A stretch of DNA of 64,000 bases from Janthinobacterium silvisoli (GTDB lineage Bacteria > Pseudomonadota > Gammaproteobacteria > Burkholderiales > Burkholderiaceae_D). A program made the translations under genes and the position numbers. The notes beneath the pieces are model-generated. The model was given only the letters and a program-made list of their open reading frames with translations, was not told the DNA's origin and did not search any database. The stretch is taken from assembly GCF_014200725.1 (NCBI RefSeq), contig NZ_JACHCL010000001.1, positions 682,001 to 746,000 on the forward strand, given 5' to 3'. Shown here piece by piece: positions 36,399 through 62,205 of this stretch; positions within the stretch are counted from its first letter, which is position 1; each line of letters opens with the position of its first letter.

Positions 36399-36494
36399 TG
36401 GCGGAAAACAGTAGGAGTCGAACCTACGGGAGAACGTCTGACGCCCTCCACCGGGTTTGAAGCCCGGCCACATCACCGGATGAGTGTGCTTTCC
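36399..36494 (-). tRNA. selC: tRNA-Sec (anticodon TCA)
   Basis: 96 nt including the encoded CCA. The 8-bp acceptor stem (GGAAAGCA with TGTTTTCC), a long 6-bp D stem, anticodon loop CTTCAAA (anticodon TCA, reads UGA), an extended variable arm and the T arm GTAGG-TTCGACT-CCTAC identify selenocysteine tRNA. It lies 12 bp after selB, so Sec insertion genes are complete here: selA, selB, selC and a UGA-containing fdnG. Confidence 0.97.
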
Positions 36495-42651: not shown

Positions 42652-45600
42652 TCATGCTTTTTCCACCTTCACGAGGAAGGACTTGAATTCCGGCGTTTGC
42701 GAATTCGCATCCCCCACGCCCGGCGTCAGGGTATTAATCAGATACCCCGGCTTGGCCACACCCGTAAAGCCCCAGTGCAGCGGCAGGCCCACGGTATGCA
42801 CCGGCTTGCCTTCGATGATCAAAGCCTTGATGCGCTTGGTCACTACCGCCTTGGCGATGATATGGCCCCGCTTGGAGCTGACCCTCACCTCGCCACCCGC
42901 CACCACGCCGATGCTCTTGGCCAGCTCTTCGCCAATTTCAACGAATTGCTGCGGCTGGATGATGGAGTTCAGCTTGGCATGCTTGGTCCAGAAGTGGAAA
43001 TGCTCGGTCAGACGATAGCTGGTCGCCACATGCGGATATTCCTCATGCGTGCCGAACATCTTGCGGTCATCGTCGAACACGCGGGCGCCCGGATTGCTGG
43101 TCGCGCGCGGGTTTTTCGGATGCATGGGGTTGTAGCCCAATGGGTTTTCGAACGGCTCGTAATGCTCGGGGAATGGCCCTTCAGCCATCGCTCCGCGCGC
43201 AAAGAAACGCGCCACACCTTCGCCCAGCATGATGAACGGACCCATGCCGTTTTCCGGCGGTTCGTCGACCTTGAAGTCGGGCACGTCGGCGCCGGTCCAG
43301 TTGGTGCCATTCCAGGCGATCAACTTGCGGGTCGGATCGAAAGGCTTGCCCTTCAAGTCGCACGAGGCGCGGTTGTACAGCACGCGGCGGTTGGCCGGCC
43401 ATGCCCAGGCCCAGCCCAGGGTCTGGCCGATGCCCGTCGGGTCGCTATTGTCGCGGCGTCCCATCTGGTTGCCCGCCTGCGTCCAGCAGCCGGCGAAGAT
43501 CCAGCAACCGCTGGTGGTCGTGCCATCGTCGCGCAATTGCGCAAACGAGGCCAGCTGTTCACCTTTTTTCACCAGCAGCTTGGTGGCGTCCTTCGGATCG
43601 TACAGGTCGACCAGCGCCTTGCCGTTGAATTCCCGTGCCAATTCCTCCGGTTGCGGGCTATGCGGCTGCGCATAGTTCCACGTCAGGTTGACGATAGGGT
43701 CAGGGAACTTGCCGCCCTCTTTCTGGTACAGGGTGCGCATGCGCAGGAACAGGCCCGACATGATCTCAAGGTCGCTGCGCGCCTGGCCCGGCGGTTCCGA
43801 CGCTTGCCAATGCCATTGCAAGACACGCGAAGAACTCACCAGCGAACCGCGCTCTTCGGCGAAGCAGCTGGTCGGCAGGCGGAACACTTCCGTCATGATC
43901 TTGCTCGGATCGACTTCGTGGTACTGCCCGTGCGGTTTCCAGAATTCGCCCGTTTCCACCGCCAGCGGGTCCATCACCACCAGGAACTTCAGCTTGGACA
44001 GCGCTTCCGTGACCTTTTGCTTGTTCGGCGCGGACGCGATGACGTTGAAGCCCTGGCAGATATAGCCGGTCATCTTGCCTTGGTGCATCAGCTCGATGGC
44101 TTGCATCAAGTCGTACGGCTTGTCGAGCTTGGGCAGGTAGTCGTAGGCGAAATTATTGTCCGCGGTGGCGAAATCGCCCCACCACGTCTTCATGAAGCTG
44201 ACGTGGAACTTGCGGTAATTACTCCAGTAGCTGAGCTGATTAGGGCGCAGCGGCTTGGTGGCGCGCGCGGCGATAAAGGCGTCGAAATCCTGTTCACCCT
44301 CGTTCGGCAGGGTCATATAACCCGGCAACAAGTTAGACATCAGGCCCAGGTCGGTCAGACCCTGGATATTCGAGTGGCCGCGCAAGGCGTTCATGCCGCC
44401 GCCGGCGATGCCCATATTGCCCAGCAACAGTTGCACCATGGCGCCCGTGCGGATGGTTTGTGCGCCCGTCGAGTGGTGCGTCCAGCCCAGTGCGTACAGG
44501 ATGGTGCCGGCGCGTCCAGGCACGGCGGTCGAAGCGAGCGCCTCCGCCACCTTGTGGAACTTGTCCGCCGACACGCCGCATGTGCGCTCGACCATCTCGG
44601 TCGTGTAGCGCGCATAGTGCTTCTTCATCATCTGGTAGACGCAGCGCGGGTGCTCCAGGGTCGGGTCGACCTTGGCATAACCGTCGGCGCCGATTTCGTA
44701 ATCCCAGGTGGCCTTGTCGGTGTACTTGCCTTTTTCCTTGTCGAAACCAGAGAACAGGCCGTCTTCGAACGCATAGTCTTCGCGCACGATGAAAGGCATG
44801 TCCGTGTAGTTGCGCACGTACTCATGCTGGATCTTGTCGTTCGTCAGCAGATAATTGATGATCGCGCCGAGGAAGACGATGTCCGTGCCGGTACGCGTGG
44901 CGCAGTAGTAGTCTGCCACGGATGCGGTACGGGTAAAACGCGGATCGACAACGATCAGCTTGGCCTTGTTATGCGCCTTCGCTTCCGTTACCCATTTGAA
45001 TCCGCAAGGATGTGCTTCTGCTGCATTGCCGCCCATGACCAAAATCACATCGGCATTCTTGATATCGACCCAATGATTCGTCATCGCGCCACGGCCAAAC
45101 GTCGGGGCAAGACCTGCCACCGTCGGTCCGTGTCATACACGCGCCTGATTATCAAAGGTCAGCATCCCCATGCTGCGCACTGTCTTGTGGGTCAGGTAAC
45201 CGACCTCGTTGCTGCCGGCGGACGCGGCCAGCATGCCGGTGGAGAGCCAGCGGTTGACGGTCTTGCCGTCGGCATTCTTTTCGATCAGGTTGGCGTCCCG
45301 GTCATCCTTCATCAGGCGCGCGATCTTGTCGAGCGCCACGTCCCAGGAGATCGGTTGCCATTCCGTGCCGCCCGGTGCGCGGTATTCCGGCACTTTGAGA
45401 CGGTTAGGACTGTGGATGAAGTCGATCAAGCTGGCGCCTTTCGGGCACAGCGTGCCGCGATTGACGGGGTGATCGGCATCGCCTTCCACGTGGATGATGC
45501 TGGAAACGGCGTTTTTCGCGCCATCGCCCAGTCCATACAGCAGGACGCCACATCCTACCGAACAGTAAGGACAGGTATTGCGTGTCTCGGTGGTGCGAGA

Positions 45601-51220: not shown

Positions 51221-51877
51221 ATGCCGTCCAGACCACCCCTGTCCAAGCCCTTGCACAAGCTGCGTATCGTGGTGGTCAATACCATCACCGCTGCCGGCCA
51301 TGAGATGGATGCCGCCTTGCAAGCCCAGGCGCAGCGCGGCGCAGCCTTGCGTATCGGCTTGCTGGAAGCGGGCTACGACATCATCGCGTCCTTGCCGGCC
51401 GACATCTATCTGCCGGAACGCATCGCCCAGCTGCAACCGGACATGATCATCATCGACGCCGAATCGGATGCGCGCGATGTGCTCGAACATATCGTCATCG
51501 CCACCCGCGACGAGCGCCGCCCCATCGTACTGTTTACGGAAGACACGACCACCTCCAGCATGGATGCGGCGATGGCGGCCGGCGTGTCCGCGTATATCGT
51601 GGCCGGCCTGCAAACCGAGCGCATCCAGCCCGTGCTGAACGTGGCGCTGGCGCGTTTCAAGCAAGAACAGAAACTGCTGGCGGAGTTGTCGGATACCAAA
51701 CACAAGCTGGCCGAACGCAAGGTGATCGAACGGGCCAAGGGCTTGCTGATGAGCCACCACCAGCTATCGGAAGAGCAGGCATATCAAAAGCTGCGCAGTA
51801 TGGCGATGAACAAGAAATTGAAGCTGGCGGAAATTGCCCAGCGAATACTGGACGTGGAAGATTTGCTCGGCAACTGA
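51221..51877 (+). CDS. nasT: NasT-like ANTAR-domain antiterminator for nitrate assimilation
   Basis: 218 residues from the ATG; an upstream ATG at 51161 is not supported. Residues 15-130 form a receiver-like domain (LRIVVVNTITAAGHEMD, MIIIDAESDARDVLEHI, RRPIVLFTEDTTTSSM). The usual phosphorylated Asp is replaced in context, so it is likely a pseudo-receiver. The C-terminal ANTAR domain (ERKVIERAKGLLMSHHQLSEEQAYQKLRSMAMNKKLKLAEIAQRILD, about 150-210) binds RNA. With NasS next to it, it should free the leader terminator of the nitrate operon at 54 kb when nitrate is present. A target with two hexaloops is seen there. Confidence 0.9.
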   Translation: MPSRPPLSKPLHKLRIVVVNTITAAGHEMDAALQAQAQRGAALRIGLLEAGYDIIASLPADIYLPERIAQLQPDMIIIDAESDARDVLEHIVIATRDERRPIVLFTEDTTTSSMDAAMAAGVSAYIVAGLQTERIQPVLNVALARFKQEQKLLAELSDTKHKLAERKVIERAKGLLMSHHQLSEEQAYQKLRSMAMNKKLKLAEIAQRILDVEDLLGN

Positions 51878-51896
51878 GCATACAGGATAGTGCAAT

Positions 51897-51918
51897 GCAC
51901 CGAAACGGTGCGTTTTTT
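51897..51918 (+). terminator. hairpin terminator between nasT and nasS
   Basis: GCACCG, AAA, CGGTGC, G, TTTTTT: a 6-bp stem with a U-run, 19 bp after the nasT stop and 15 bp before nasS. It may attenuate nasS and cobA relative to nasT. Confidence 0.6.
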
Positions 51919-51932
51919 AGATCAGGAGTGGT

Positions 51933-53048
51933 ATGTCGGACAATATGAGCGCCTGGGTAGCAGGATCGGACAGGCCGGAAAAACAAGTGGTCAGGATAGG
52001 CTTCCTGCCGCTGACCGATTGTGGGTCGCTGATCATGGCCTCGCTGCTGGGTTTTGATGAACAGTTTGGCATCAAGATCGAACTGAGCAGGGAAGCGTCC
52101 TGGGCCAGCGTGCGCGACAAGCTGGGCAGCGGCGAACTCGACGCCGCCCACGTGTTGTACGGCCTGATGTATGGCGTGCAGATGGGCATCGGTGGACAGG
52201 CGCGCGGCATGGCGGTGCTGATGAATCTGAACCATAATGGCCAGGCGGTCACGCTATCGTCCAGCTTGGCGCAGCAAGGCGCCATCGATGGGACCTCGCT
52301 GGCCGGCGTGATACGCAGCACGCCGCGCCCTTATACCTTTGCGCATACCTTTCCCACCGGCACACACGCCATGTATCTGCATTACTGGCTGGCCGCGCAC
52401 GGCATCGACCCGCTGCGCGAGGTGCGCATGGTGACCGTGCCGCCGCCGCAAATGGTCGACAATCTGCGCGCCGGCCGCATGGATGGGTATTGCGTGGGAG
52501 AACCTTGGGGCATGACGGCGGTACACGACGGAATCGGCGTCACGGCGGCCACCACGCAAGACATCTGGCCCGACCACCCGGGCAAGGTGCTGGGCACGAC
52601 CGCCGATTTTGCCGACAAGTACCCGAACACTTGCCGCGCCCTCATCGCGGCTGTGCTGGAGGCGGGCCGCTGGCTGGACGCTTCTGTTGAAAATAAAAAA
52701 ACCATGCTGAAGACCATCAGCCAGCCGCACTACGTCAAGACCGCCCAGGCCTGGGAAGACCAGCATGGCTTGCAGTTCTACAACAGCGGCGCCGTCAACT
52801 TCCCCTATTTGTCAGACGGCATGTGGTTCATGACCCAGCACCGGCGCTGGGGCTTGCTGAAGGATGACCCCGGCTACCTGGCCGTGGCCAGCAAGGTCAA
52901 CCGCATCGACCTGTACAAACAAGCAGCGGAAATGACAGCTACGCCGCTACCGTCCGACGTGCTGCGCAGCTCCACCCTGATCGATGGCGTCGTATGGGAT
53001 GGCACCGAACCCGAACGCTACGCTGCCTCGTTCGCCATCCGCAAATAA
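51933..53048 (+). CDS. nasS: NasS-like cytoplasmic nitrate/nitrite sensor
   Basis: 371 residues of the NrtA/CmpA/NasF periplasmic-binding family (RIGFLPLTDCGSLIMASLLGFDEQFGIKIEL, GELDAAHVLYGLMYG, DGYCVGEPWGM, EWxx-like ends) but with no signal peptide: the N-terminus is MSDNMSAWVAGSDRPEKQ. This is the mark of NasS, which stays in the cytoplasm and binds NasT when nitrate is absent. Its place directly after nasT and before cobA and the nitrate operon supports the role. GGAG precedes the ATG. No nrtB/nrtC transport partners are present. Confidence 0.9.
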   Translation: MSDNMSAWVAGSDRPEKQVVRIGFLPLTDCGSLIMASLLGFDEQFGIKIELSREASWASVRDKLGSGELDAAHVLYGLMYGVQMGIGGQARGMAVLMNLNHNGQAVTLSSSLAQQGAIDGTSLAGVIRSTPRPYTFAHTFPTGTHAMYLHYWLAAHGIDPLREVRMVTVPPPQMVDNLRAGRMDGYCVGEPWGMTAVHDGIGVTAATTQDIWPDHPGKVLGTTADFADKYPNTCRALIAAVLEAGRWLDASVENKKTMLKTISQPHYVKTAQAWEDQHGLQFYNSGAVNFPYLSDGMWFMTQHRRWGLLKDDPGYLAVASKVNRIDLYKQAAEMTATPLPSDVLRSSTLIDGVVWDGTEPERYAASFAIRK

Positions 53049-53059
53049 AGGAATCCATC

Positions 53060-53839
53060 ATGCAACAAGGAAACGTGACACTGGTGGGCGCCGGCCCCGG
53101 CGATCCGGAATTGCTGACATTGAAAGCCGTCAAGGCACTGCAGCAGGCAGACGTGGTCTTGATCGACGACCTGGTCAACCCGGCCATCCTGGCCCATGCA
53201 CCAGCTAGCGCGCGCGTGATCGAAGTAGGCAAGCGCGGCGGCTGCAAGTCGACGCCACAGGAATTTATCGAGCGCCTGATGATCGCCGAAGCCAACGCGG
53301 GCCAGCGCGTCGTACGCCTGAAAGGCGGCGACCCTTATCTGTTCGGCCGCGGCGGTGAAGAGCGCGCCCATCTGATGAGGCAAGGAGTCAGCGTTGAAGT
53401 CGTGCCCGGCATCAGCAGCGGCCTGGCAGCGCCAGCCAGCATCGGCGTGCCGCTGACCCACCGCCGCTGGAGCCAGGGCGCGGTATTTGTTACGGGCCAC
53501 GGCAAGGACGCCGCCTCCGAACCAAACTGGACCGCCCTGGCGCAAAGCCGGCTAACCCTGGTCATCTACATGGGCGTGGCCCGCTGCGCGCAGATCCAGG
53601 CAGGATTATTAGCCGGCGGCATGGCGCCCGACACGCCCGTGGCCATAGTGCAATCAGCCAGCCGCAGCGACCAGCGCCAACTGCTGACGACCATGGGCGA
53701 ACTACCCGCCGCCTTGCTGGCCAGCGGGCTGGGCAGTCCAAGCATTATCGTGGTGGGCGATGTCGTGCGGTGTGCGGATCAGTGGAGTGCCGAGGAAGTC
53801 ACATCGCACGAAATCTATGGCAATGCTGGTTTGCGCTGA
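53060..53839 (+). CDS. cobA: uroporphyrinogen-III C-methyltransferase
   Basis: 259 residues from the ATG after AAAGGAA, 12 bp past nasS. SAM-dependent uroporphyrinogen methyltransferase marks: VTLVGAGPGDPELLTLKAVKAL (about 5-26), VVRLKGGDPYLFGRGGEER (about 86-104), EVVPGISSGLAAPA and PLTHRR. It makes precorrin-2, the precursor of siroheme needed by NirB. This fits its place beside the nitrate/nitrite reductase genes. It lacks the CysG oxidase/chelatase part, so those steps are encoded elsewhere. Confidence 0.93.
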   Translation: MQQGNVTLVGAGPGDPELLTLKAVKALQQADVVLIDDLVNPAILAHAPASARVIEVGKRGGCKSTPQEFIERLMIAEANAGQRVVRLKGGDPYLFGRGGEERAHLMRQGVSVEVVPGISSGLAAPASIGVPLTHRRWSQGAVFVTGHGKDAASEPNWTALAQSRLTLVIYMGVARCAQIQAGLLAGGMAPDTPVAIVQSASRSDQRQLLTTMGELPAALLASGLGSPSIIVVGDVVRCADQWSAEEVTSHEIYGNAGLR

Positions 53840-53857
53840 TTCATCAATGCAATCATC

Positions 53858-53893
53858 GCACCACAATCGCGCATCCCCGCACCATCATCTGGC
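53858..53893 (+). promoter_or_regulatory. possible tandem NtrC sites
   Basis: Two GCACCA half-sites at 53858 and 53879 are 21 bp apart (two turns), about 90-115 bp before the sigma-54 start. The right-hand half-sites are weak (about 4/6 and 3/6). Confidence 0.45.
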
Positions 53894-53946
53894 CTTTCTT
53901 TCGCACAAGTCCCCTGCTCCACCCTGCGTAGCCCCTACAACGTATC

Positions 53947-53962
53947 TGGCACGGCGTTTGCT
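53947..53962 (+). promoter_or_regulatory. sigma-54 promoter of the nitrate operon
   Basis: TGGCACGGCGTTTGCT matches TGGCACR-N4-TTGCW at every defined position. GG is at 53948-53949 and GC at 53960-53961, so transcription should start near 53973, leaving a leader of about 135 nt before the transporter ATG. Confidence 0.88.
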
Positions 53963-54007
53963 AGAGCATAGATGCGGATCAATGGCGATCCCCTGAACAA
54001 TGAGTGT

Positions 54008-54043
54008 CGGTCCAACGAGGGGCTGGCAAGGACAACGGCGTCC
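54008..54043 (+). ncRNA. ANTAR-target leader RNA with two hexaloop hairpins
   Basis: Hairpin P1: CGGTCC-AACGAG-GGGCTG (54008-54025, includes G-U pairs). Hairpin P2: GGAC-AACGGC-GTCC (54030-54043). Each has a six-base loop with A at position 1 and G at position 4, the ANTAR recognition pattern. P2 shares its right arm with the terminator that begins at 54038, so P2 and terminator exclude each other. Confidence 0.8.
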
Positions 54044-54086
54044 GCCCAGCTTGGTTTTTCAAACCTTGCCGGGCGGACGCTTTTTT
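54038..54086 (+). terminator. leader terminator (attenuator) of the nitrate operon
   Basis: GCGTCCGCCC (54038-54047) pairs perfectly with GGGCGGACGC (54071-54080), with inner pairing GGTTT/AAACC, followed by TTTTTT (54081-54086). It lies 21 bp before the transporter gene. Confidence 0.92.
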
Positions 54087-54107
54087 GTTTTTAACGGGAT
54101 ACGAAAA

Positions 54108-55400
54108 ATGGCCAGCAAAGCAAATAGCATCAATCTCTTTTCCCTGGGCACGCCGCAGATGCGGGCCTTCCATCTGACGTGGATGGCGTTCTTTGTCTGT
54201 TTCTTCGCCTGGTTCGCCTGCGCGCCGTTGATGCCTGTGATCAAGGGCGAGTTCCATCTGTCGGTGGGACAGATCGCCAATATCAATATCGCCGCCGTCG
54301 CCATCACGATCCTCGTGCGGCTGCTGGTGGGGCCGCTGTGCGACCGCTACGGTCCGCGCAAAACTTACACGGGGCTGTTGCTGCTGGGTGCAATCCCCGT
54401 GCTGGGCGTGGCCCTGTCGCAAAGTTATGAAAGCTTTTTGATCTTCCGCCTCGGCATCGGCGCAGTGGGCGCCAGCTTCGTCATTACCCAATATCACACG
54501 TCCGTCATGTTTGCACCGAACGTGGTCGGCACGGCCAACGCCACCTCGGCCGGCTGGGGCAATGCGGGCGCAGGTGCGGCGCAGGCGCTGATGCCGTTGC
54601 TGCTGGGTGCGCTGGTAATGCTGGGCGTCACGGAAGCCATGGGCTGGCGTGTCGCTTTGCTGGTGCCAGGCGTGCTGATGCTGGTGATGGCGGCTTTGTA
54701 CTGGCGCTATACGCAAGATACGCCGGATGGCAATTACGATCAGCTGCGTGCCGATGGCGTGAGCATCGACGGTGGCAAGAAAGGCGGCTGGGCCAGCTTC
54801 AAGGCGGCCAGCGCCAACTACCGCGTCTGGCTGCTGTTCGTCACCTACGGCGCCTGTTTCGGGATTGAACTGTTTATCCATGGCGTGGCCGCCGTGTATT
54901 ACGTCGACCACTTTGGTTTGTCGCTGAAATCGGCTGGCTTTGCCGCAGGCAGCTTCGGCTTGCTGGCCCTGTTTGCCCGCGCCCTCGGTGGCTGGCTGTC
55001 CGACAAGCTGGCCTTGCGCGGCAACCTCAATAGCCGTGTCACTCTGCTGTTTATGCTGATGATAGGCGAAGGCCTGGGCTTGCTGTGGTTTGCCCACGCG
55101 GGCAGCGTGACGTTTGCCGTGATCGCCATGCTGGGCTTTGGCTTGTTCACGCACATGGCTTGCGGCGCAACCTATGCGCTGGTGCCGTTTATCGACCGCA
55201 AGGCTTTGGGCGGCGTGACTGGCATTATCGGCGCCGGCGGCAATGTGGGCGCGGTGCTGGCTGGTTTCCTGATGAAAGGCACGGGCGATGTGCAGCAAAC
55301 CTTGAGCATCCTCGGTGCGCTGGTACTGGTCTCGGCTATCTGCGCGATTGCCGTGCGTTTCAGCAATGCCGCCGACCAGGCTGCCATGGCTGCGGCTTGA
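54108..55400 (+). CDS. NarK/NasA family nitrate/nitrite MFS transporter
   Basis: 430 residues from the ATG at 54108; earlier in-frame codons lie in the leader RNA. Twelve membrane helices; nitrate-porter motifs are WMAFFVCFFAWFACAPLMP, RLLVGPLCDRYGPRKTY, the nitrate signature GWGNAGAGAAQALMPLL and the second GGVTGIIGAGGNVGAVLAGF. A conserved arginine in helix 2 (IAVAITILVRLLVGP) is present. It imports nitrate for assimilation. It is the first gene of the nirB-nirD-FAD reductase-nasA operon, 11 bp before nirB. Confidence 0.94.
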   Translation: MASKANSINLFSLGTPQMRAFHLTWMAFFVCFFAWFACAPLMPVIKGEFHLSVGQIANINIAAVAITILVRLLVGPLCDRYGPRKTYTGLLLLGAIPVLGVALSQSYESFLIFRLGIGAVGASFVITQYHTSVMFAPNVVGTANATSAGWGNAGAGAAQALMPLLLGALVMLGVTEAMGWRVALLVPGVLMLVMAALYWRYTQDTPDGNYDQLRADGVSIDGGKKGGWASFKAASANYRVWLLFVTYGACFGIELFIHGVAAVYYVDHFGLSLKSAGFAAGSFGLLALFARALGGWLSDKLALRGNLNSRVTLLFMLMIGEGLGLLWFAHAGSVTFAVIAMLGFGLFTHMACGATYALVPFIDRKALGGVTGIIGAGGNVGAVLAGFLMKGTGDVQQTLSILGALVLVSAICAIAVRFSNAADQAAMAAA

Positions 55401-55411
55401 AAGGTATCAGC

Positions 55412-57937
55412 ATGAAAATCATCGTTATCGGCCATGGCATGGTCGGCCATAAATTCCTCGAGCAACTGGCTGATAGTGGTGCGCCGCTGGAAGTGACCGT
55501 GTTGTGCGAAGAACCGCGCCCTGCCTATGACCGCGTGCATCTGTCGGAATTTTTCTCCGGCAAGTCGGCCGACGATCTGTCGCTGGTGCCACCCGGTTTT
55601 TTCGAGCGCGGCAATGTATTGTTGAAACTCAATGCCCGCGCCAGCGCCATCGACCTGGCAAGCAAGACTGTCACCGTCAGCAGCGGTGAAGTGCTGCTTT
55701 ACGACAAGCTGGTGATCGCCACCGGTTCCACGCCCTTCGTGCCCCCCCTGCCCGGCAAGGACCGCAAGGATTGTTTTGTCTACCGCACCATCGAAGATCT
55801 GCAAGCGATGCTGGAATGCGGTCAGCGTTCAAAAACAGGGGTGGTGATCGGCGGCGGCTTGCTGGGACTGGAATGCGCGAAAGCCTTGCGCGACATGCAG
55901 CTGGACACGCACGTGGTGGAATTTGCACCGCGCCTGATGGCGGTGCAAGTCGATGAAGGCGGCGCGCGCGTGCTGCGCCGCAAGATCGAAGACCTGGGCG
56001 TGACCGTGCACACGCAAAAAAACACCCTGGCGATCACCGATGGCGAGCAAGGCACACACCGCATGGTGTTTGCCGATGGCACGAATCTCGATGCCGACAT
56101 GATCGTGTTTTCCGCCGGCATACGCCCGCGCGACGAGTTGGCGCGTGCCTGCGGGTTAACGGTTGGCCCGCGCGGCGGCATCGCCATCGATGACAGTTGC
56201 TTGACGTCTGACCCGGACGTATATGCGATCGGCGAATGCGCCTTGTGGGGCGGCCAGACCTTTGGCCTGGTGGCGCCCGGTTATGAAATGGCGCGCATCG
56301 CCGCCCGCCATATCCTGGGTGAACAAGGAAGCTTCGCTGGCGCCGATATGAGCACCAAGCTGAAACTAATGGGCGTGGACGTGGCCAGCCTCGGCGATCC
56401 GCACGGGACCACCGCCGGCAGCCGCTCGTATCAATTCACCGATGAGCGCAAGCAAATCTACAAGAAAATCGTCGTCTCCGACTGCGGCAAGTACTTGCTG
56501 GGCGGCGTGATGGTGGGCGACGCCAGCGAGTACGGCACCCTGCTGCAAATGATGCTCAACAAGATAGAGCTGCCGGCATCGCCGGAATTTTTGATCTTGC
56601 CGCAATCGGATGGCCAAAGCAAACCTGGCCTGGGCGTGGATGCCCTGCCGGACAACGCGCAAATCTGCTCGTGCAACGACGTCTCGAAAGGCACGCTATG
56701 CGCGGCGGTGGCGGATGGCAACACGTCCATCGGCGCCCTGAAAAGCTGTACCAAGGCAGGCACGGCTTGCGGCGGCTGCGTGCCGCTGGTGACGCAGATC
56801 ATGAAAGCTGAAATGAAAAAGCTGGGCATGGATGTCAACAACCATGCCTGCGAGCATTTCGCGTACTCGCGCCAGGAATTGTTTCACCTGGTGCGCGTCG
56901 GCAAGATCCGCAGCTTCGAGGATTTGCTGGCGCAACACGGCAAGGGTCTCGGTTGCGATGTCTGCAAACCGATGGCGGCCAATATCCTGGCTTCATGCTG
57001 GAACGACTTCGTGCTCAAGAAGGAGCACGCCAGCTTGCAGGATACGAACGACTATTTCCTCGGCAATATCCAGAAAGACGGCACCTATTCCGTGGTGCCG
57101 CGCATGCCGGGCGGCGAAGTCACGGCCGATGGCTTGATCGCGGTGGGCCAGGTGGCCAAGAAATACGGTCTCTACACCAAGATCACGGGCGGCCAGCGGG
57201 TCGACCTGTTTGGTGCGCGGGTCGAGCAATTGCCGCTGATCTGGGAAGAGCTGATCGCAGCTGGTTTTGAATCGGGCCACGCGTATGGCAAATCCTTGCG
57301 CACGGTCAAATCATGCGTGGGTTCCACCTGGTGCCGCTATGGCGTGGCCGACAGCGTCGGCTTTGCGATAGCACTGGAAAACCGCTACAAGGGCTTGCGC
57401 ACGCCGCACAAGATCAAGTTTGGCGTGTCCGGCTGCACGCGCGAATGCGCCGAGGCGCAAGGCAAGGATATCGGCTTGATCGCCACTGAAAAAGGCTGGA
57501 ATCTGTATGTCTGCGGCAATGGCGGCATGAAGCCGCGCCACGCGGAATTGCTGGCGTCCGACCTCGACAATGCCACCCTGGTGCGTTATGTCGACCGTTT
57601 CCTGATGTTTTATATCCGCACCGCCGACCGGCTGCAACGCACCAGCGTATGGCGCGACAACCTCGAAGGCGGCCTCGATTACCTGAAAGCCGTGGTGATC
57701 GATGACAAACTCCATATCGCGCAAGAACTGGAAGCGGACATGCAGCACGTGGTCGACAACTATGCCTGCGAGTGGCAAGCGGCCGTCAGCGACCCGGCCA
57801 CGCGCCAGCGTTTCCGCCATTTCGTCAACAGCGATGAAAAAGATAACAACGTGGTCTTCATGGAAGAACGGGGGCAGATACGCCCCGCCACGGTGGAAGA
57901 GCGCAAGCGCATTCCTATCATCGCCAAGTCTGCCTGA
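55412..57937 (+). CDS. nirB: NAD(P)H nitrite reductase, large subunit
   Basis: 841 residues, standard length. Domains in order: FAD/NAD pyridine nucleotide-disulphide-type module (KIIVIGHGMVGHKFLEQL; VVIGGGLLGLECAKAL; YAIGECALWGG), a BFD-like 2Fe-2S site (CSCNDVSKGT... SCTKAGTACGGC, about 422-460), a nitrite/sulfite reductase ferredoxin half-domain, and siroheme/4Fe-4S ligands CVGSTWC and GCTRECAEAQ (about 630-680). It reduces nitrite to ammonium in the cytoplasm. AAAGG lies before the ATG. Confidence 0.96.
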   Translation: MKIIVIGHGMVGHKFLEQLADSGAPLEVTVLCEEPRPAYDRVHLSEFFSGKSADDLSLVPPGFFERGNVLLKLNARASAIDLASKTVTVSSGEVLLYDKLVIATGSTPFVPPLPGKDRKDCFVYRTIEDLQAMLECGQRSKTGVVIGGGLLGLECAKALRDMQLDTHVVEFAPRLMAVQVDEGGARVLRRKIEDLGVTVHTQKNTLAITDGEQGTHRMVFADGTNLDADMIVFSAGIRPRDELARACGLTVGPRGGIAIDDSCLTSDPDVYAIGECALWGGQTFGLVAPGYEMARIAARHILGEQGSFAGADMSTKLKLMGVDVASLGDPHGTTAGSRSYQFTDERKQIYKKIVVSDCGKYLLGGVMVGDASEYGTLLQMMLNKIELPASPEFLILPQSDGQSKPGLGVDALPDNAQICSCNDVSKGTLCAAVADGNTSIGALKSCTKAGTACGGCVPLVTQIMKAEMKKLGMDVNNHACEHFAYSRQELFHLVRVGKIRSFEDLLAQHGKGLGCDVCKPMAANILASCWNDFVLKKEHASLQDTNDYFLGNIQKDGTYSVVPRMPGGEVTADGLIAVGQVAKKYGLYTKITGGQRVDLFGARVEQLPLIWEELIAAGFESGHAYGKSLRTVKSCVGSTWCRYGVADSVGFAIALENRYKGLRTPHKIKFGVSGCTRECAEAQGKDIGLIATEKGWNLYVCGNGGMKPRHAELLASDLDNATLVRYVDRFLMFYIRTADRLQRTSVWRDNLEGGLDYLKAVVIDDKLHIAQELEADMQHVVDNYACEWQAAVSDPATRQRFRHFVNSDEKDNNVVFMEERGQIRPATVEERKRIPIIAKSA

Positions 57938-57946
57938 GGAGCCATC

Positions 57947-58288
57947 ATGCACAGGGATTTAATCAATGCTCGCTGGACATCGATTTGCCAGCTGGACGCT
58001 ATCGTGCCAAACACGGGCGTCTGCGCCCTCGTCAATGGCGAGCAGGTGGCGGTATTTCGCCTCGGCGATGAACGTCTGTTTGCCATCGATAATTACGATG
58101 GCAATGCCGGTGCTTCGGTGCTGTCGCGCGGCTTGCTCGGCAGCATGGGCGAGCGCATCGTGGTGGCCTCGCCCATCTATAAACAGCATTTCGACCTGCT
58201 AACGGGCGACTGCCTGGAAGCGCCCGAGCATTCAGTGGCCACCTGGCCCGTCAAGGTGGAAAACGGCCAAGTATGGGTGGGTGCATGA
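57947..58288 (+). CDS. nirD: nitrite reductase small subunit
   Basis: 113 residues with a Rieske-like fold but without the cluster-binding Cys-x-His pairs, as is normal for NirD (DNYDGNAGASVLSRGLLGSMGERIVVASPIYKQHFDLLTGDC, ending WPVKVENGQVWVGA). It supports NirB. It follows nirB by 9 bp, and its stop overlaps the next gene (ATGA). Confidence 0.94.
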   Translation: MHRDLINARWTSICQLDAIVPNTGVCALVNGEQVAVFRLGDERLFAIDNYDGNAGASVLSRGLLGSMGERIVVASPIYKQHFDLLTGDCLEAPEHSVATWPVKVENGQVWVGA

Positions 58289-59505
58289 CAGACGCTAAGG
58301 CAAAGCCATCGCTGGTGGTGATCGGCAACGGCATGGCCGGCATGCGCACGGTGGAAGAATTGCTTAAGCTCACCCCGGACCTGTATGACATCACCGTGTT
58401 TGGCGCCGAACCACACGGCAATTACAACCGCATCCTGCTGTCGCCCGTGCTGGCCGGTGAAAAAAGCATGGACGACATCATGCTCAACACGCGCGAATGG
58501 TATGGGCAGCATGGCATTACCCTGCATGCGGGCGACCCTGTCGTGCATATCGACCGCGTGCGCAGGATGGTGCGCGCCGCCTCCGGCCTGGCCGTGCATT
58601 ACGACAGGCTGCTGCTGGCGACCGGCTCCAAGCCCTTCATGATCCCCGTGCCCGGCCATGCCTTGCCGGGCGTGATCGGTTTTCGCGATATTGACGATGT
58701 AGCAACGATGGTGCAGGCCGCAAAAAACCACCGTCACGCGGTGGTGATCGGCGGCGGCTTGCTGGGACTGGAAGCGGCCAATGGCTTGTTGCGCCAGGGC
58801 ATGGAAGTCACCGTGGTGCATGTCAGCGATACCCTGATGAACCAGCAGCTCGACAAGCCTGCCTCGGCCCTGTTGAAGCAGGCGCTGGAAGTGAAGGGCC
58901 TGCGCTTTCTGCTCAATGCCCACACAGCAGAAATCGTCGGCAGCGAGAGGGTCACGGCCGTGCGCTTCAAGGATGGCTCGGAAATTCCCGCCGACCTGGT
59001 GGTGATGGCGGCGGGCGTGCGGCCCAATATTGCGCTGGCGCAGCAAGCGGGCTTACATTGCGAACGCGCCATCGTGGTCGACGACACCTTGCAAAGCTAC
59101 GATCCACGCGTGTACGCAGTCGGTGAATGCGTGCAGCACCGCAGCGCCACCTTCGGCCTGGTGGCGCCGATCTGGGAACAAGCCAAGGTATGCGCCGCGC
59201 ATCTGGCGGGGAACGGCCACCGCCGCTACGTACAGCAAGCCAGCCCCACCAAGCTGAAAGTGACGGGCATCAACCTGTATTCGGTCGGCAATTTTATCGG
59301 CGGCCCCGACAGCGAAGACCTGGTCTTGCGCGATCCGCGCCGCGGCATTTATAAACGGCTGGTGGTGGAACACAACCGCCTGGCCGGCGCCGTACTGTAT
59401 GGCGACGTGGCCGATGGGTCCTGGTATTTCGATTTGATACAGCAGCGCAGCGATATTTCCGCCATGCGCCAGCGCTTGCTGTTCGGCAAAGCCGCCTCCG
59501 TGTAG
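58285..59505 (+). CDS. FAD-dependent NAD(P)H reductase, likely electron donor of NasA
   Basis: 406 residues from the ATG overlapping the nirD stop. It is a paralogue of the first half of NirB: LVVIGNGMAGMRTVEELL (FAD), VVIGGGLLGLEAANGLL (NAD), YAVGECVQHRSATFGLVAP, and KLKVTGINLYSVGNFIGG. It lacks the Fe-S and siroheme parts. In assimilatory nitrate operons (NasC/NasB-type) such a protein passes electrons from NADH to the molybdenum subunit. Context (between nirD and nasA) supports this; the specific partner is inferred. It shares a 34-bp identical stretch with nirB at the NAD-loop codons. Confidence 0.88.
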   Translation: MTDAKAKPSLVVIGNGMAGMRTVEELLKLTPDLYDITVFGAEPHGNYNRILLSPVLAGEKSMDDIMLNTREWYGQHGITLHAGDPVVHIDRVRRMVRAASGLAVHYDRLLLATGSKPFMIPVPGHALPGVIGFRDIDDVATMVQAAKNHRHAVVIGGGLLGLEAANGLLRQGMEVTVVHVSDTLMNQQLDKPASALLKQALEVKGLRFLLNAHTAEIVGSERVTAVRFKDGSEIPADLVVMAAGVRPNIALAQQAGLHCERAIVVDDTLQSYDPRVYAVGECVQHRSATFGLVAPIWEQAKVCAAHLAGNGHRRYVQQASPTKLKVTGINLYSVGNFIGGPDSEDLVLRDPRRGIYKRLVVEHNRLAGAVLYGDVADGSWYFDLIQQRSDISAMRQRLLFGKAASV

Positions 59506-59520
59506 CATCAGGAAACCATC

Positions 59521-62205
59521 GTGTATCTTTCCTCTCCCCCCTTTTCCGTGCGCACCACCTGCCCGTATTGCGGTGTCGGTTGCGGCGTATCCGCTACGCC
59601 GATGCCGGACGGCGCCATCCAAATTGCGGGTGACACCAGCCACCCGGCCAACTTTGGCAAACTGTGCGTCAAGGGTTCGGCCCTCGGTGAAACCGTCTCG
59701 CTCGATGGCCGCTTGCTGCACCCGCAAGTACGTGGCCCCGACGGTTTGCAAGAAGTAAGCTGGGATGATGCATTGCAAAAAGTAGCCGATGGCTGGAGCC
59801 GCACGATTGCCGAATATGGCCCCGATGCCGTGGCGCTGTATATCTCAGGGCAATTGCTGACGGAAGACTATTACATCGCCAACAAGCTGATGAAGGGCTA
59901 TGTCGGCAGCGCCAATATCGACACCAATTCGCGGCTGTGCATGTCGTCCGCCGTGGCGGGCCACAAGCGGGCCTTTGGCGAAGACCTGGTGCCCGGCTGT
60001 TATGAAGACCTGGACCAGGCCGACATGGTGGTGCTGGTCGGCTCCAACACGGCGTGGTGCCATCCGATCTTGTTCCAGCGCATAGCACAGGCCAAGGAAG
60101 CGCGGCCGGAGCTGAAACTGGTGGTGATCGATCCGCGCCGCACCGCCACCTGCGAACTGGCCGATCTGCATTTGCCCGTCAAACCGGGCACCGATGTGTG
60201 GCTGTTCAATGGCTTGCTATGCTACCTGGCCTTGCATGGTTTCGTCGATGAAACATTTGTTGCTGAACATACCAATGGCCTGTTTGACGCTTTGACGGCG
60301 GCCAGGGTCGATTGCAGCGATCCGGCGGCAGTGGCGAAAATCTGCCGCATCGACGAGCGCGACTTGCTGATCTTTTACCAGTCCTTTGCCGCCACCGGCA
60401 AAGTGGTCACGGCTTTTTCGCAAGGCGTGAACCAGTCGTCGGCCGGCACCGACAAGGTCAACAGCATCATCAATTGCCATCTGGTTTGCGGGCGCATCGG
60501 CCAGCCCGGCATGGGACCATTTTCACTGACAGGCCAGCCTAACGCGATGGGCGGGCGCGAAGTGGGCGGCCTGGCCAATATGCTGGCTGCGCACATGGAT
60601 CTCGATAATGCCGCGCACCGCGAGACAGTGCAAACTTTTTGGGATTCACCGAAGATTGCCAGCAAGCCCGGCTTGAAAGCGGTGGACTTGTTCCGCGCGA
60701 TTGAAGATGGCAAGGTCAAGGCCGTGTGGATTATCGCCACCAATCCCATGGTCAGCATGCCGGACGCCAGCCAGGTACAGCGCGCGCTGGAAAAATGCCC
60801 GCTGGTGGTGGTGTCCGACATCAGCCAGCATACCGACACCAATGCCTTTGGCCATGTGTTGCTGCCGGCCCTGGGCTGGGGTGAAAAAGATGGAACGGTC
60901 ACCAATTCAGAGCGCCGCATTTCACGCCAGCGCGCCTTCCTGCCAGCTCCGGGAGAAGCGCGCGCAGACTGGAAGGCGCTGTGCCAGGTGGCGCAGCGTT
61001 TGGGCTACGACGGTTTCGATTTTGATGCTCCCCACCAGATTTTCGATGAACATGCACGGCTCAGCACATACCGCAACGACGGCGCCACGGCCCGTTTCTT
61101 TACCCTGACGGGCCTGGAAGGCTTGAGTGCGCAACAGTATGACCAGCTCGATCCCGTGCAATGGCCGCTGGACCAGGCCCGGCTGTTCGAAGATGGCTGC
61201 TTTGCGCATGCCGATGGCCGCGCCCGTTTTATTGCCACCACGCCACGCGCGCCCGTCAACGCCGTCAGCGAGGATTATCCGCTGGTGTTGAATACGGGCC
61301 GCGTGCGCGACCAGTGGCATACCATGACGCGCACGGGCAAGTCGGCGCGGCTGGCCGATCATGTGCCGGAATCGTTTGTCGATATCCACCCGCAAGACGC
61401 CTTGCTGTACAGCGTGCGCGAGGGCGAGCTGGCGCGGGTGTCCACGCCGTGGGGCGCGATGGTGGCGAGGGTGCAGCATGGCGGCGGCATCGCGCGCGGC
61501 ACGATTTTTGTGCCCATCCACTGGAATGGCCAAACGGCGTCCGATGCAAGGGTCGGTCCACTGGTCAACCCGGTTGTGGACCCTGTCTCGGGCGAGCCGG
61601 AATTCAAGCATACGCCGGCGCGGGTCGAGCAATTCCGCGTCAACTGGCATGGTTTTGTGCTGAGCCGGCGCGAGCTGGATCTGGAAAGAGTCGCCCACTG
61701 GACGCGTATTCAGGGCAAGGATTTTGCCCGTTATGAGTTGGCGGGCAGGAATACCATCAAGGACTACACAGACTGGGCGCGCCGCTTGCTGCAGGTCGAT
61801 GACGAACAGGCCGACTGGCTGGAATACGAAGACCGCAGCGCCGGCCTGTACCGTGCCGTGCACCTGGTCGATGACCGTATCGATCAATGTGTGTTTTTAT
61901 CGCCGCGCCCGGACTTGCCTTCGCGCGCCTGGCTGGCTAGCCTTTTTGCCCACGAACAACTACCGCCAGCGGACCGGGTAGGCTTGCTGCTGGGCCAGCC
62001 GATAGAAAAAGGTGCAGATACGGGCCCCACCGTATGCTCGTGTTTTGGCGTGGGCCGCAACACCATCTGCGAGACGATCCGCAGCCAGAATCTGGACAGC
62101 GTGGCCCAGGTAACGGCTTGCCTGAAAGCAGGCGGCAATTGCGGATCGTGCGTGCCAGAAATTAAGAAACTGCTGGTGGAAACGCGGGCCGAACAAACCG
62201 CTTGA
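59521..62205 (+). CDS. nasA: assimilatory nitrate reductase, catalytic subunit
   Basis: 894 residues from a GTG start after CAGGAAA. 4Fe-4S site CPYCGVGCGV with later LCVKG; bis-MGD molybdopterin regions SANIDTNSRLCMSSAVAGHKRAFG, VLVGSNTAWCHPI, FSLTGQPNAMGGREVGG, WIIATNPMVSMPD; a dinucleotide-binding C-terminal domain (NTGRVRDQWHTMTRTGK); and an added C-terminal BFD-like 2Fe-2S site (CSCFGVGRN... CLKAGGNCGSCVPE, about 839-880) that should take electrons from the FAD reductase. It reduces nitrate to nitrite in the cytoplasm; no signal peptide. It ends the operon; no terminator is seen before the convergent gene. Confidence 0.95.
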   Translation: MYLSSPPFSVRTTCPYCGVGCGVSATPMPDGAIQIAGDTSHPANFGKLCVKGSALGETVSLDGRLLHPQVRGPDGLQEVSWDDALQKVADGWSRTIAEYGPDAVALYISGQLLTEDYYIANKLMKGYVGSANIDTNSRLCMSSAVAGHKRAFGEDLVPGCYEDLDQADMVVLVGSNTAWCHPILFQRIAQAKEARPELKLVVIDPRRTATCELADLHLPVKPGTDVWLFNGLLCYLALHGFVDETFVAEHTNGLFDALTAARVDCSDPAAVAKICRIDERDLLIFYQSFAATGKVVTAFSQGVNQSSAGTDKVNSIINCHLVCGRIGQPGMGPFSLTGQPNAMGGREVGGLANMLAAHMDLDNAAHRETVQTFWDSPKIASKPGLKAVDLFRAIEDGKVKAVWIIATNPMVSMPDASQVQRALEKCPLVVVSDISQHTDTNAFGHVLLPALGWGEKDGTVTNSERRISRQRAFLPAPGEARADWKALCQVAQRLGYDGFDFDAPHQIFDEHARLSTYRNDGATARFFTLTGLEGLSAQQYDQLDPVQWPLDQARLFEDGCFAHADGRARFIATTPRAPVNAVSEDYPLVLNTGRVRDQWHTMTRTGKSARLADHVPESFVDIHPQDALLYSVREGELARVSTPWGAMVARVQHGGGIARGTIFVPIHWNGQTASDARVGPLVNPVVDPVSGEPEFKHTPARVEQFRVNWHGFVLSRRELDLERVAHWTRIQGKDFARYELAGRNTIKDYTDWARRLLQVDDEQADWLEYEDRSAGLYRAVHLVDDRIDQCVFLSPRPDLPSRAWLASLFAHEQLPPADRVGLLLGQPIEKGADTGPTVCSCFGVGRNTICETIRSQNLDSVAQVTACLKAGGNCGSCVPEIKKLLVETRAEQTA

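Follow-up and report, generated by a model that had tools for sequence, protein, structure and literature searches.

The ANTAR RNA motif is described as a pair of hairpins in the available text of five papers (PMC3369931, PMC7496416, PMC8164766, PMC8934654, PMC3369936). In the dual-hairpin targets of EutV (eut), NasR (nasF) and AmiR (amiE), the hexaloops carry A at the first and G at the fourth position (A1/G4) above a C-G closing pair, and the final hairpin overlaps an intrinsic terminator, according to the parts of these reports that were accessible (PMC3369931, PMC3369936, PMC7496416). Linkers of 5-12 nt are given for eut (PMC3369931), and a range of 2-25 nt was used for actinobacteria (PMC8164766). 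Two hairpins were reported to suffice for NasR, at about 1 uM (PMC7496416). For EutV, the model of Walshe et al. (2022) has the upstream hairpin recruit the dimer, which is then handed to the antitermination hairpin; in the text available, the same authors ask what the pair is needed for, if the dimer binds only one hairpin (PMC8934654). The NasS-NasT systems combine a nitrate sensor with an ANTAR antiterminator. In Paracoccus denitrificans, where nitrate assimilation genes lie downstream of the nasA leader (PMC3795266, PMC5424462), NasS was reported to release NasT upon nitrate (PMC3795266), and for its leader one paper names two hairpins as HI and HII (PMC5424462) and the other speaks of 'a series of regulatory hairpins' (PMC3795266). 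For the nos/nas genes of Bradyrhizobium, a 'NasT-interaction hairpin' is mentioned with the number of hairpins unstated (PMC6759348). A third ANTAR hairpin at the 5' terminus is unmentioned in the accessible portions of these three NasS-NasT papers (PMC5424462, PMC3795266, PMC6759348).

We analysed a 64,000-nt stretch of Janthinobacterium silvisoli DNA (the window), the closest named relative of which is Janthinobacterium sp. S3T4 (98%). It carries an arrangement like those of P. denitrificans and Bradyrhizobium, with an ANTAR-domain NasT encoded beside an NMT1-like NasS and, as in P. denitrificans, nitrate assimilation genes downstream. The leader region (53940-54110) opens with a sigma-54 box, followed by the leader itself and by narK from 54108. 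The features are as follows.

51221-51874, plus strand: nasT, ANTAR-domain regulator (PF03861, 2.2e-20)
51933-53048, plus strand: nasS, nitrate sensor-like NMT1_2 protein (PF13379, 7.7e-94)
53060-53839, plus strand: cobA/sumT, uroporphyrinogen-III C-methyltransferase (sirohaem; TIGR01469 and NF004790, both above cut-off)
53946-53962, plus strand: sigma-54 (-24/-12) promoter, CTGGCACG-GCGT-TTGCT
53976-53991, plus strand: P0, ANTAR-type hairpin GGATC-AATGGC-GATCC, found in folds, at +4 to +19 of the predicted transcript
54005-54028, plus strand: P1, hexaloop hairpin, arms 54005-54013 and 54020-54028, loop AACGAG at 54014-54019
54030-54043, plus strand: P2, antiterminator hairpin GGAC-AACGGC-GTCC, arms 54030-54033 and 54040-54043, loop at 54034-54039
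54038-54086, plus strand: intrinsic terminator, 10-bp stem 54038-54047/54071-54080 with inner pairs, six T's at 54081-54086
54108-55400, plus strand: narK-type nitrate/nitrite MFS transporter, the first gene of the operon (PF07690)
55412-62205, plus strand: nirB, nirD, an NAD(P)H/FAD reductase and an assimilatory nitrate reductase-like molybdoprotein

The nirB models and one nirD model scored above their cut-offs. The names of narK and of the molybdoprotein lean on context, because TIGR00886 (290 bits for the narK product, cut-off 311.7) and the molybdoprotein models fell below their curated cut-offs; the FAD reductase and the molybdoprotein, whose NCBIfam models scored below cut-off, are putatively named from their best families and context. 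Between nasT and nasS, a candidate terminator (51894-51920) with a hairpin and a T-run in the window was rejected, as the closest relative read, L075, had the hairpin but lacked the T-run; among the 11 loci in which this gap was read (in L074 it fell beyond the fetched stretch), a five-T run followed a similar hairpin only in L037.

The earlier note had read this leader as a NasT antitermination switch of a known kind, and anatomy, neighbouring genes and conservation support that reading well. Its two hairpins with loops AACGAG and AACGGC lay where it had placed them, and the 10-bp terminator with six T's enclosing the right arm of P2 was recovered both in the sequence and in folds. NasT and NasS are indeed encoded upstream, with cobA intervening between nasS and the leader. 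The 4-nt gap it gave between the hairpins holds when P1 is counted as 6 bp but becomes 1 nt when P1 is counted as 9 bp, so that the P1-P2 linker is 1-4 nt by the number of P1 pairs counted (the P0-P1 linker is 13 nt with a 9-bp P1). The P1 stem had 9 bp when folded alone and 8 bp in the full-leader minimum, including three G-U pairs. The full set was said to lie within 3 kb, which is true of the window (51221-54108) but not of at least one congener, G030, where nasT (C1:2788857) lies about 1.6 Mb from narK (C1:4418500). The window NasT was 84-86% identical to its six best matches in genus g35, against 81-83% to congeners in the same sample, from which the window's nearest relatives G012 and G016 were absent; these identities and the layout in G030 hint that the history of the cluster may differ. 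What did not stand was the description of the switch as complete with two hairpins: a third ANTAR-type hairpin, P0, lies at the 5' end of the predicted transcript. The two-hairpin antitermination leader is already known, and it is this third, 5'-end hairpin in a NasT leader that appears to be new. Unlike the classic dual-hairpin targets, the leader thus has an extra hairpin at its 5' end, which is better conserved than the upstream member of the pair.

All three loops, AATGGC in P0, AACGAG in P1 and AACGGC in P2, are hexaloops with A1 and G4, and all three are closed by a C-G pair. The 3' arm of P2 (54040-54043) lies entirely within the 5' arm of the terminator, so P2 and the terminator are mutually exclusive. 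When the leader was folded with and without P2 constrained, as the earlier note had proposed, the terminator form reached -59.5 kcal/mol and the form with P0, P1 and P2 -47.7 kcal/mol. The terminator alone was far more stable than its shuffles (z -7.83, 0/200 folding as well). P1 and P2 alone (z -1.23, 24/200 shuffles equally stable) and P0, P1 and P2 together (53974-54047; z -0.40, 67/200) had energies near chance, and the case for the three hairpins therefore rests on comparison. By every feature that could be tested, the leader appears to belong to the ANTAR-target kind, except for its unusually short P1-P2 linker.

An exact match to the sigma-54 pattern YTGGCACGNNNNTTGCW occurred once in the window, at 53946-53962. 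With one mismatch permitted there were 2 matches against 0.73 expected, which is near chance, and support for the promoter therefore comes from where it lies and from its being conserved ahead of narK; a looser pattern was matched in 77/78 named narK leaders. The transcription start (+1) is predicted at 53973, and the consensus suggests nitrogen control through sigma-54. The open reading frame from an upstream in-frame ATG (54000-55400) runs uninterrupted into narK, which would make the leader narK coding region. This ATG was rejected as the narK start, as it is not conserved in 77 leaders and no Shine-Dalgarno-like sequence was seen by eye before it, and we give the coding explanation next to no credence.

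For comparison, 113 stretches around nasT or narK were fetched from genomes of the genus, family, class and phylum, and 112 of them were scanned by script (L086, the other ANTAR locus, was left out). The scan returned 83 leaders that combine two A1/G4 hexaloop hairpins with an overlapping terminator. Removing 13 leaders, found at 12 loci of the same genus, and the implausible L091 (+), and adding the window, gave a set of 70 leaders, mostly near nasT. A second set was anchored on narK and comprised 80 named loci, of which two were too short, leaving 78. From this set we built a 77-row alignment by sequence only (the window and 76 named loci, without L199, L215 and the two short loci) and a 76-row alignment including the window (without L199, L215, L223 and the two short loci), of which 73 distinct rows were tested. 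Leaders in these sets are related to each other, and the hairpin counts are not independent.

Within the genus, P0 was seen by eye in 29/30 fetched leaders, the window included (in L031 the sequence ends within the leader), and it was nearly invariant, with P1 varying more. In the set of 70, 36 leaders showed an additional A1/G4 hexaloop hairpin, with a stem of at least 5 bp, within the 60 nt preceding P1; dinucleotide shuffles gave 0.88 on average and never more than 5, and any other class of first- and fourth-base loop was found in at most 2/70. Features outside the selection criteria were shared as well, namely the C-G closing pair (34/36) and A at the second loop position (35/36); the closing pair was C-G in 61/70 leaders for P1 and in 66/70 for P2. 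Among the 32 P0 leaders with a loose sigma-54 match, 28 hairpins began at 0 to +8 and two later (+16 and +28), and the calls in L066 (-42) and L116 (-13), which precede the predicted start, are probably false. The window's own family contributed 27 of the 36 P0 leaders, and seven credible ones came from beyond it (L060 twice, L069, L072, L129, L137 and L145). In the narK-anchored set, an A1/G4 hexaloop hairpin stood at +3 to +6 in 74 of the 77 leaders with a sigma-54 match, a count that includes L223, in which the 5' hairpin is P1 and a third hairpin is absent. The three misses were L215, with P0 farther from the matched promoter box, and Cupriavidus L224 and L225, with a mismatch in the P0 stem; L199 had three hairpins and no sigma-54 match. 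Another hexaloop class appeared once in the first 32 nt of the narK leaders, and blocks upstream of the promoter held an A1/G4 hairpin in 1/305.

P0, P1, P2 and the terminator were each conserved in the 77-row alignment. The five pairs of P0 were formed in 378/380 cells, and its loop had A1, A2 and G4 in 76/76. P2 was paired in 307/308 cells with the loop AAnGGC in 77/77 leaders and, being nearly invariant, offers no covariation; the terminator was paired in 726/770 cells, and P1 in 531/601 cells over 8 pairs, with compensatory changes. P0 was thus better conserved than P1. In the 73 distinct rows, tested over seven P0 pairs, the five inner pairs were formed in 363/365 cells. P0 pairing and covariation scored above all 500 shuffles, and one of the five measures (further pair types) was reached by 79/500. 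Of the 35 double changes in P0, 27 fell in the two outer pairs, which were formed in only 16 and 29 of the 73 rows. Sliding the partners reduced pairing to 31.5-46.8% from 79.8%, and the covariation score was 0.132 with the partner slid by +3 against 0.159. In distant leaders, the P0 stem sequences differ widely, but these leaders were chosen for pairing. The alignments indicate that P0 pairing is very well supported and that covariation within narK leaders is modest to moderate; the evidence for P0 lies in its pairing, its loop, the closing pair and its position. In a wider search, the P0-P2 pattern TCAANGNCGA-N28..58-GGACAANGGCGTCC occurred in 195/392 genomes of the family, in 8/44 genera, and its backwards control had none among the matches listed. 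On this comparative evidence, P0 is strongly supported as a conserved RNA structure.

P0 could serve RNA stability. The switch would then be a two-hairpin one in which P1 and P2 suffice, with P0 as a hairpin protecting the 5' end of the mRNA and its loop alike by descent. Its place at the extreme 5' end of narK leaders, the 34/70 leaders without P0 by script, and the two-hairpin motifs reported, in the text available, to be enough for EutV and NasR (PMC3369931, PMC7496416) all fit this explanation. However, a stability hairpin needs neither the A1, A2 and G4 that are constant here nor a hexaloop at all, other hexaloop classes are nearly absent, and P0 is retained where a signature P1 is missing, so that we regard mere protection as unlikely.

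P1 was the variable hairpin. Its loop had A1 in 71/77 and G4 in 70/77 narK leaders, and by script a signature P1 was missing between P0 and P2 in 12/77. Four of these (L160, L178, L185 and L192) contain, by reading, a P1-like hairpin with a mismatch. Eight narK leaders without a signature P1 retain P0 and P2: L197, L200, L208, L209 and L215 (Burkholderia/Paraburkholderia), L194, and L224 and L225 (Cupriavidus). A non-ANTAR hairpin occupies the position of P1 in L194 and in Cupriavidus L224 (the middle segment of L225 is assumed to be like that of L224), and nothing of the kind stands there in the five Burkholderia/Paraburkholderia leaders. The opposite case is L223 (Duganella), with P1 and P2 only. 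In the six P1-less loci, of eight, whose genomes were searched (L197, L200, L208, L215, L224 and L194), NasT was 42-51% identical to that of the window, compared with 76% for L223, which is suggestive only of a link between a diverged NasT and P1-less leaders.

These leaders bear on a further explanation, in which P0 and P2 form the functional ANTAR pair on one NasT dimer and P1 is a spacer that shortens the distance between them and can be an ANTAR hairpin or one of another sort, or be missing. It has its view of P0 in common with the three-hairpin reading that we favour and differs from it on P1. The replaced and lost P1 hairpins speak for it, as does the drift of P1 loops, the greatest of the three: AA[ACT]GGC was found in 10/36 three-hairpin leaders against 25/34 of the others, a contrast that can be taken as a hint, since the two groups of leaders differ in taxonomic origin. 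Conversely, the frequencies of A1 and G4 in P1 exceed what a spacer needs, and in the P1-less L200 the distance between P0 and P2 is 41 nt, outside the published spacing ranges. We hold the spacer explanation possible, if doubtful.

The order in which the hairpins emerge was computed by growth-series folding with an assumed polymerase footprint of 12 nt. P0 was predicted to be clear of the polymerase by about 54008, with P1 following by about 54044 and P2 by about 54055, and P0 and P1 formed ahead of P2, with the probability of P1 down to 0.48-0.64 in some growth steps. P2 held from about 54055 to about 54090, and the terminator prevailed once the polymerase had reached 54086-54092, which is the end of the T-run or just beyond it. 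P0 would thus be available about 50 nt before P2, with about 30 nt left for P2 to be captured.

Together, we consider it probable that the leader acts as a NasT-dependent antitermination switch in which P0, one of three ANTAR-type hairpins, recruits NasT. Transcription would begin at the sigma-54 promoter under nitrogen control. Without nitrate, NasS would hold NasT and RNA polymerase would halt at the terminator; by analogy with P. denitrificans, nitrate would presumably cause NasS to release NasT in this bacterium. The freed NasT would dock first on the 5'-terminal P0 as it emerges, be kept close to the polymerase by P0 and P1, and capture P2 in the interval of roughly 30 nt before the terminator forms. 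With P2 held, four bases of the terminator 5' arm would be in its stem and two in its loop, costing the terminator six of its ten pairs, and the outcome would be read-through into narK-nirBD-nas. We infer the docking on P0 and this order of events as a model. The timing of P0 would fit the recruitment-then-handoff scheme proposed for EutV, with P0 as recruiter; unlike that scheme, which in the text available has two hairpins (PMC8934654), the candidate recruiter here is a separate, 5'-terminal hairpin.

A broader proposal, which we regard as evenly balanced between right and wrong, is that, in a three-hairpin class common among the relatives and scattered beyond them, the recruitment partner that P2 cannot do without is the 5'-terminal P0 rather than P1. 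The 'dual hairpin' would then be one case of a modular design of recruiter and antiterminator, with a middle hairpin that can be swapped or lost. P0 makes the need for more than one hairpin in ANTAR targets testable, and natural variants exist for that question: P0, P1 and P2; P0, another hairpin and P2 (L194, L224); P0 and P2 (Burkholderia/Paraburkholderia); and P1 and P2 (L223). Searches for two adjacent hairpins could choose the wrong partner or overlook P1-less leaders. No three-hairpin ANTAR leader was found in those parts of the open-access literature that were available, and supplements may hold unremarked cases (Ramesh Table S2).

Matches of Rfam families over the leader were weak and all far below gathering (RF03032, 20.9 against 43.2; RF00625, 19.0 against 70; RF01744, 21.7 against 65), and 16/80 named loci were without an Rfam match at gathering. 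The consensus structures of these families, narK RNA (RF03032), P11 (RF00625) and livK (RF01744), show ANTAR-type hexaloops like this leader, and those of narK RNA and P11 also have, by reading, a sigma-54-like box as here; unlike here, a third ANTAR hairpin is not visible in the three alignments. The narK RNA consensus reads GGcagCC-AACGGC-GGcugCC and CGAC-AAAGAC-GUCG, the P11 'sRNA' has cuuC-AACGau-Gaag together with GGAC-AAAGGC-GUCC in surroundings that resemble a terminator, and livK has a 3' hairpin GGAC-AcuGuc-GUCC. Judging from these consensus sequences, narK RNA, P11 and livK may be ANTAR targets under other names. The terms 'narK RNA' and 'narK motif' were not found in the available text of open-access papers.

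The genome gave two ANTAR matches, one being the NasT encoded about 2 kb upstream of the leader. The second (G000:C5:151335-151493; L002, L086) is a receiver-ANTAR regulator, adjoined by thiE-like and alcohol-dehydrogenase-like genes named from their translations; the script scan detected no dual ANTAR motif at this locus (L086). The presence of this regulator near a thiE-like gene would allow a different ANTAR protein to read P0, the leader then integrating two signals. Against this, 9 of 25 P0-bearing genomes, picked from the 195, had a single ANTAR match, and NasT is therefore the sole known candidate reader there; we judge a second reader very improbable. The NasT search scored part of the candidates, and G085, unmatched in it, had an ANTAR match separately.

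The earlier note had also suggested a genome-wide covariance search. Our model R2 recovered the leader (E 2e-16), with the window being one of its 32 training rows, but gave no other target better than E 0.4 among the 150 of 3317 candidates scored. A one-mismatch P2 pattern occurred 16 times in the genome and its backwards control 18 times, with no excess. Three of the fetched loci (L037, L041 and L106) carry two ANTAR leaders each: the one ahead of a NasS/NrtA-like gene has two hairpins, and that ahead of narK has three. Elsewhere in the window, a SECIS_3 element (45080-45138, minus strand) and a selenocysteine tRNA (36403-36494, minus strand) scored above their Rfam gathering thresholds, and together they make up a selenoprotein system within the window.
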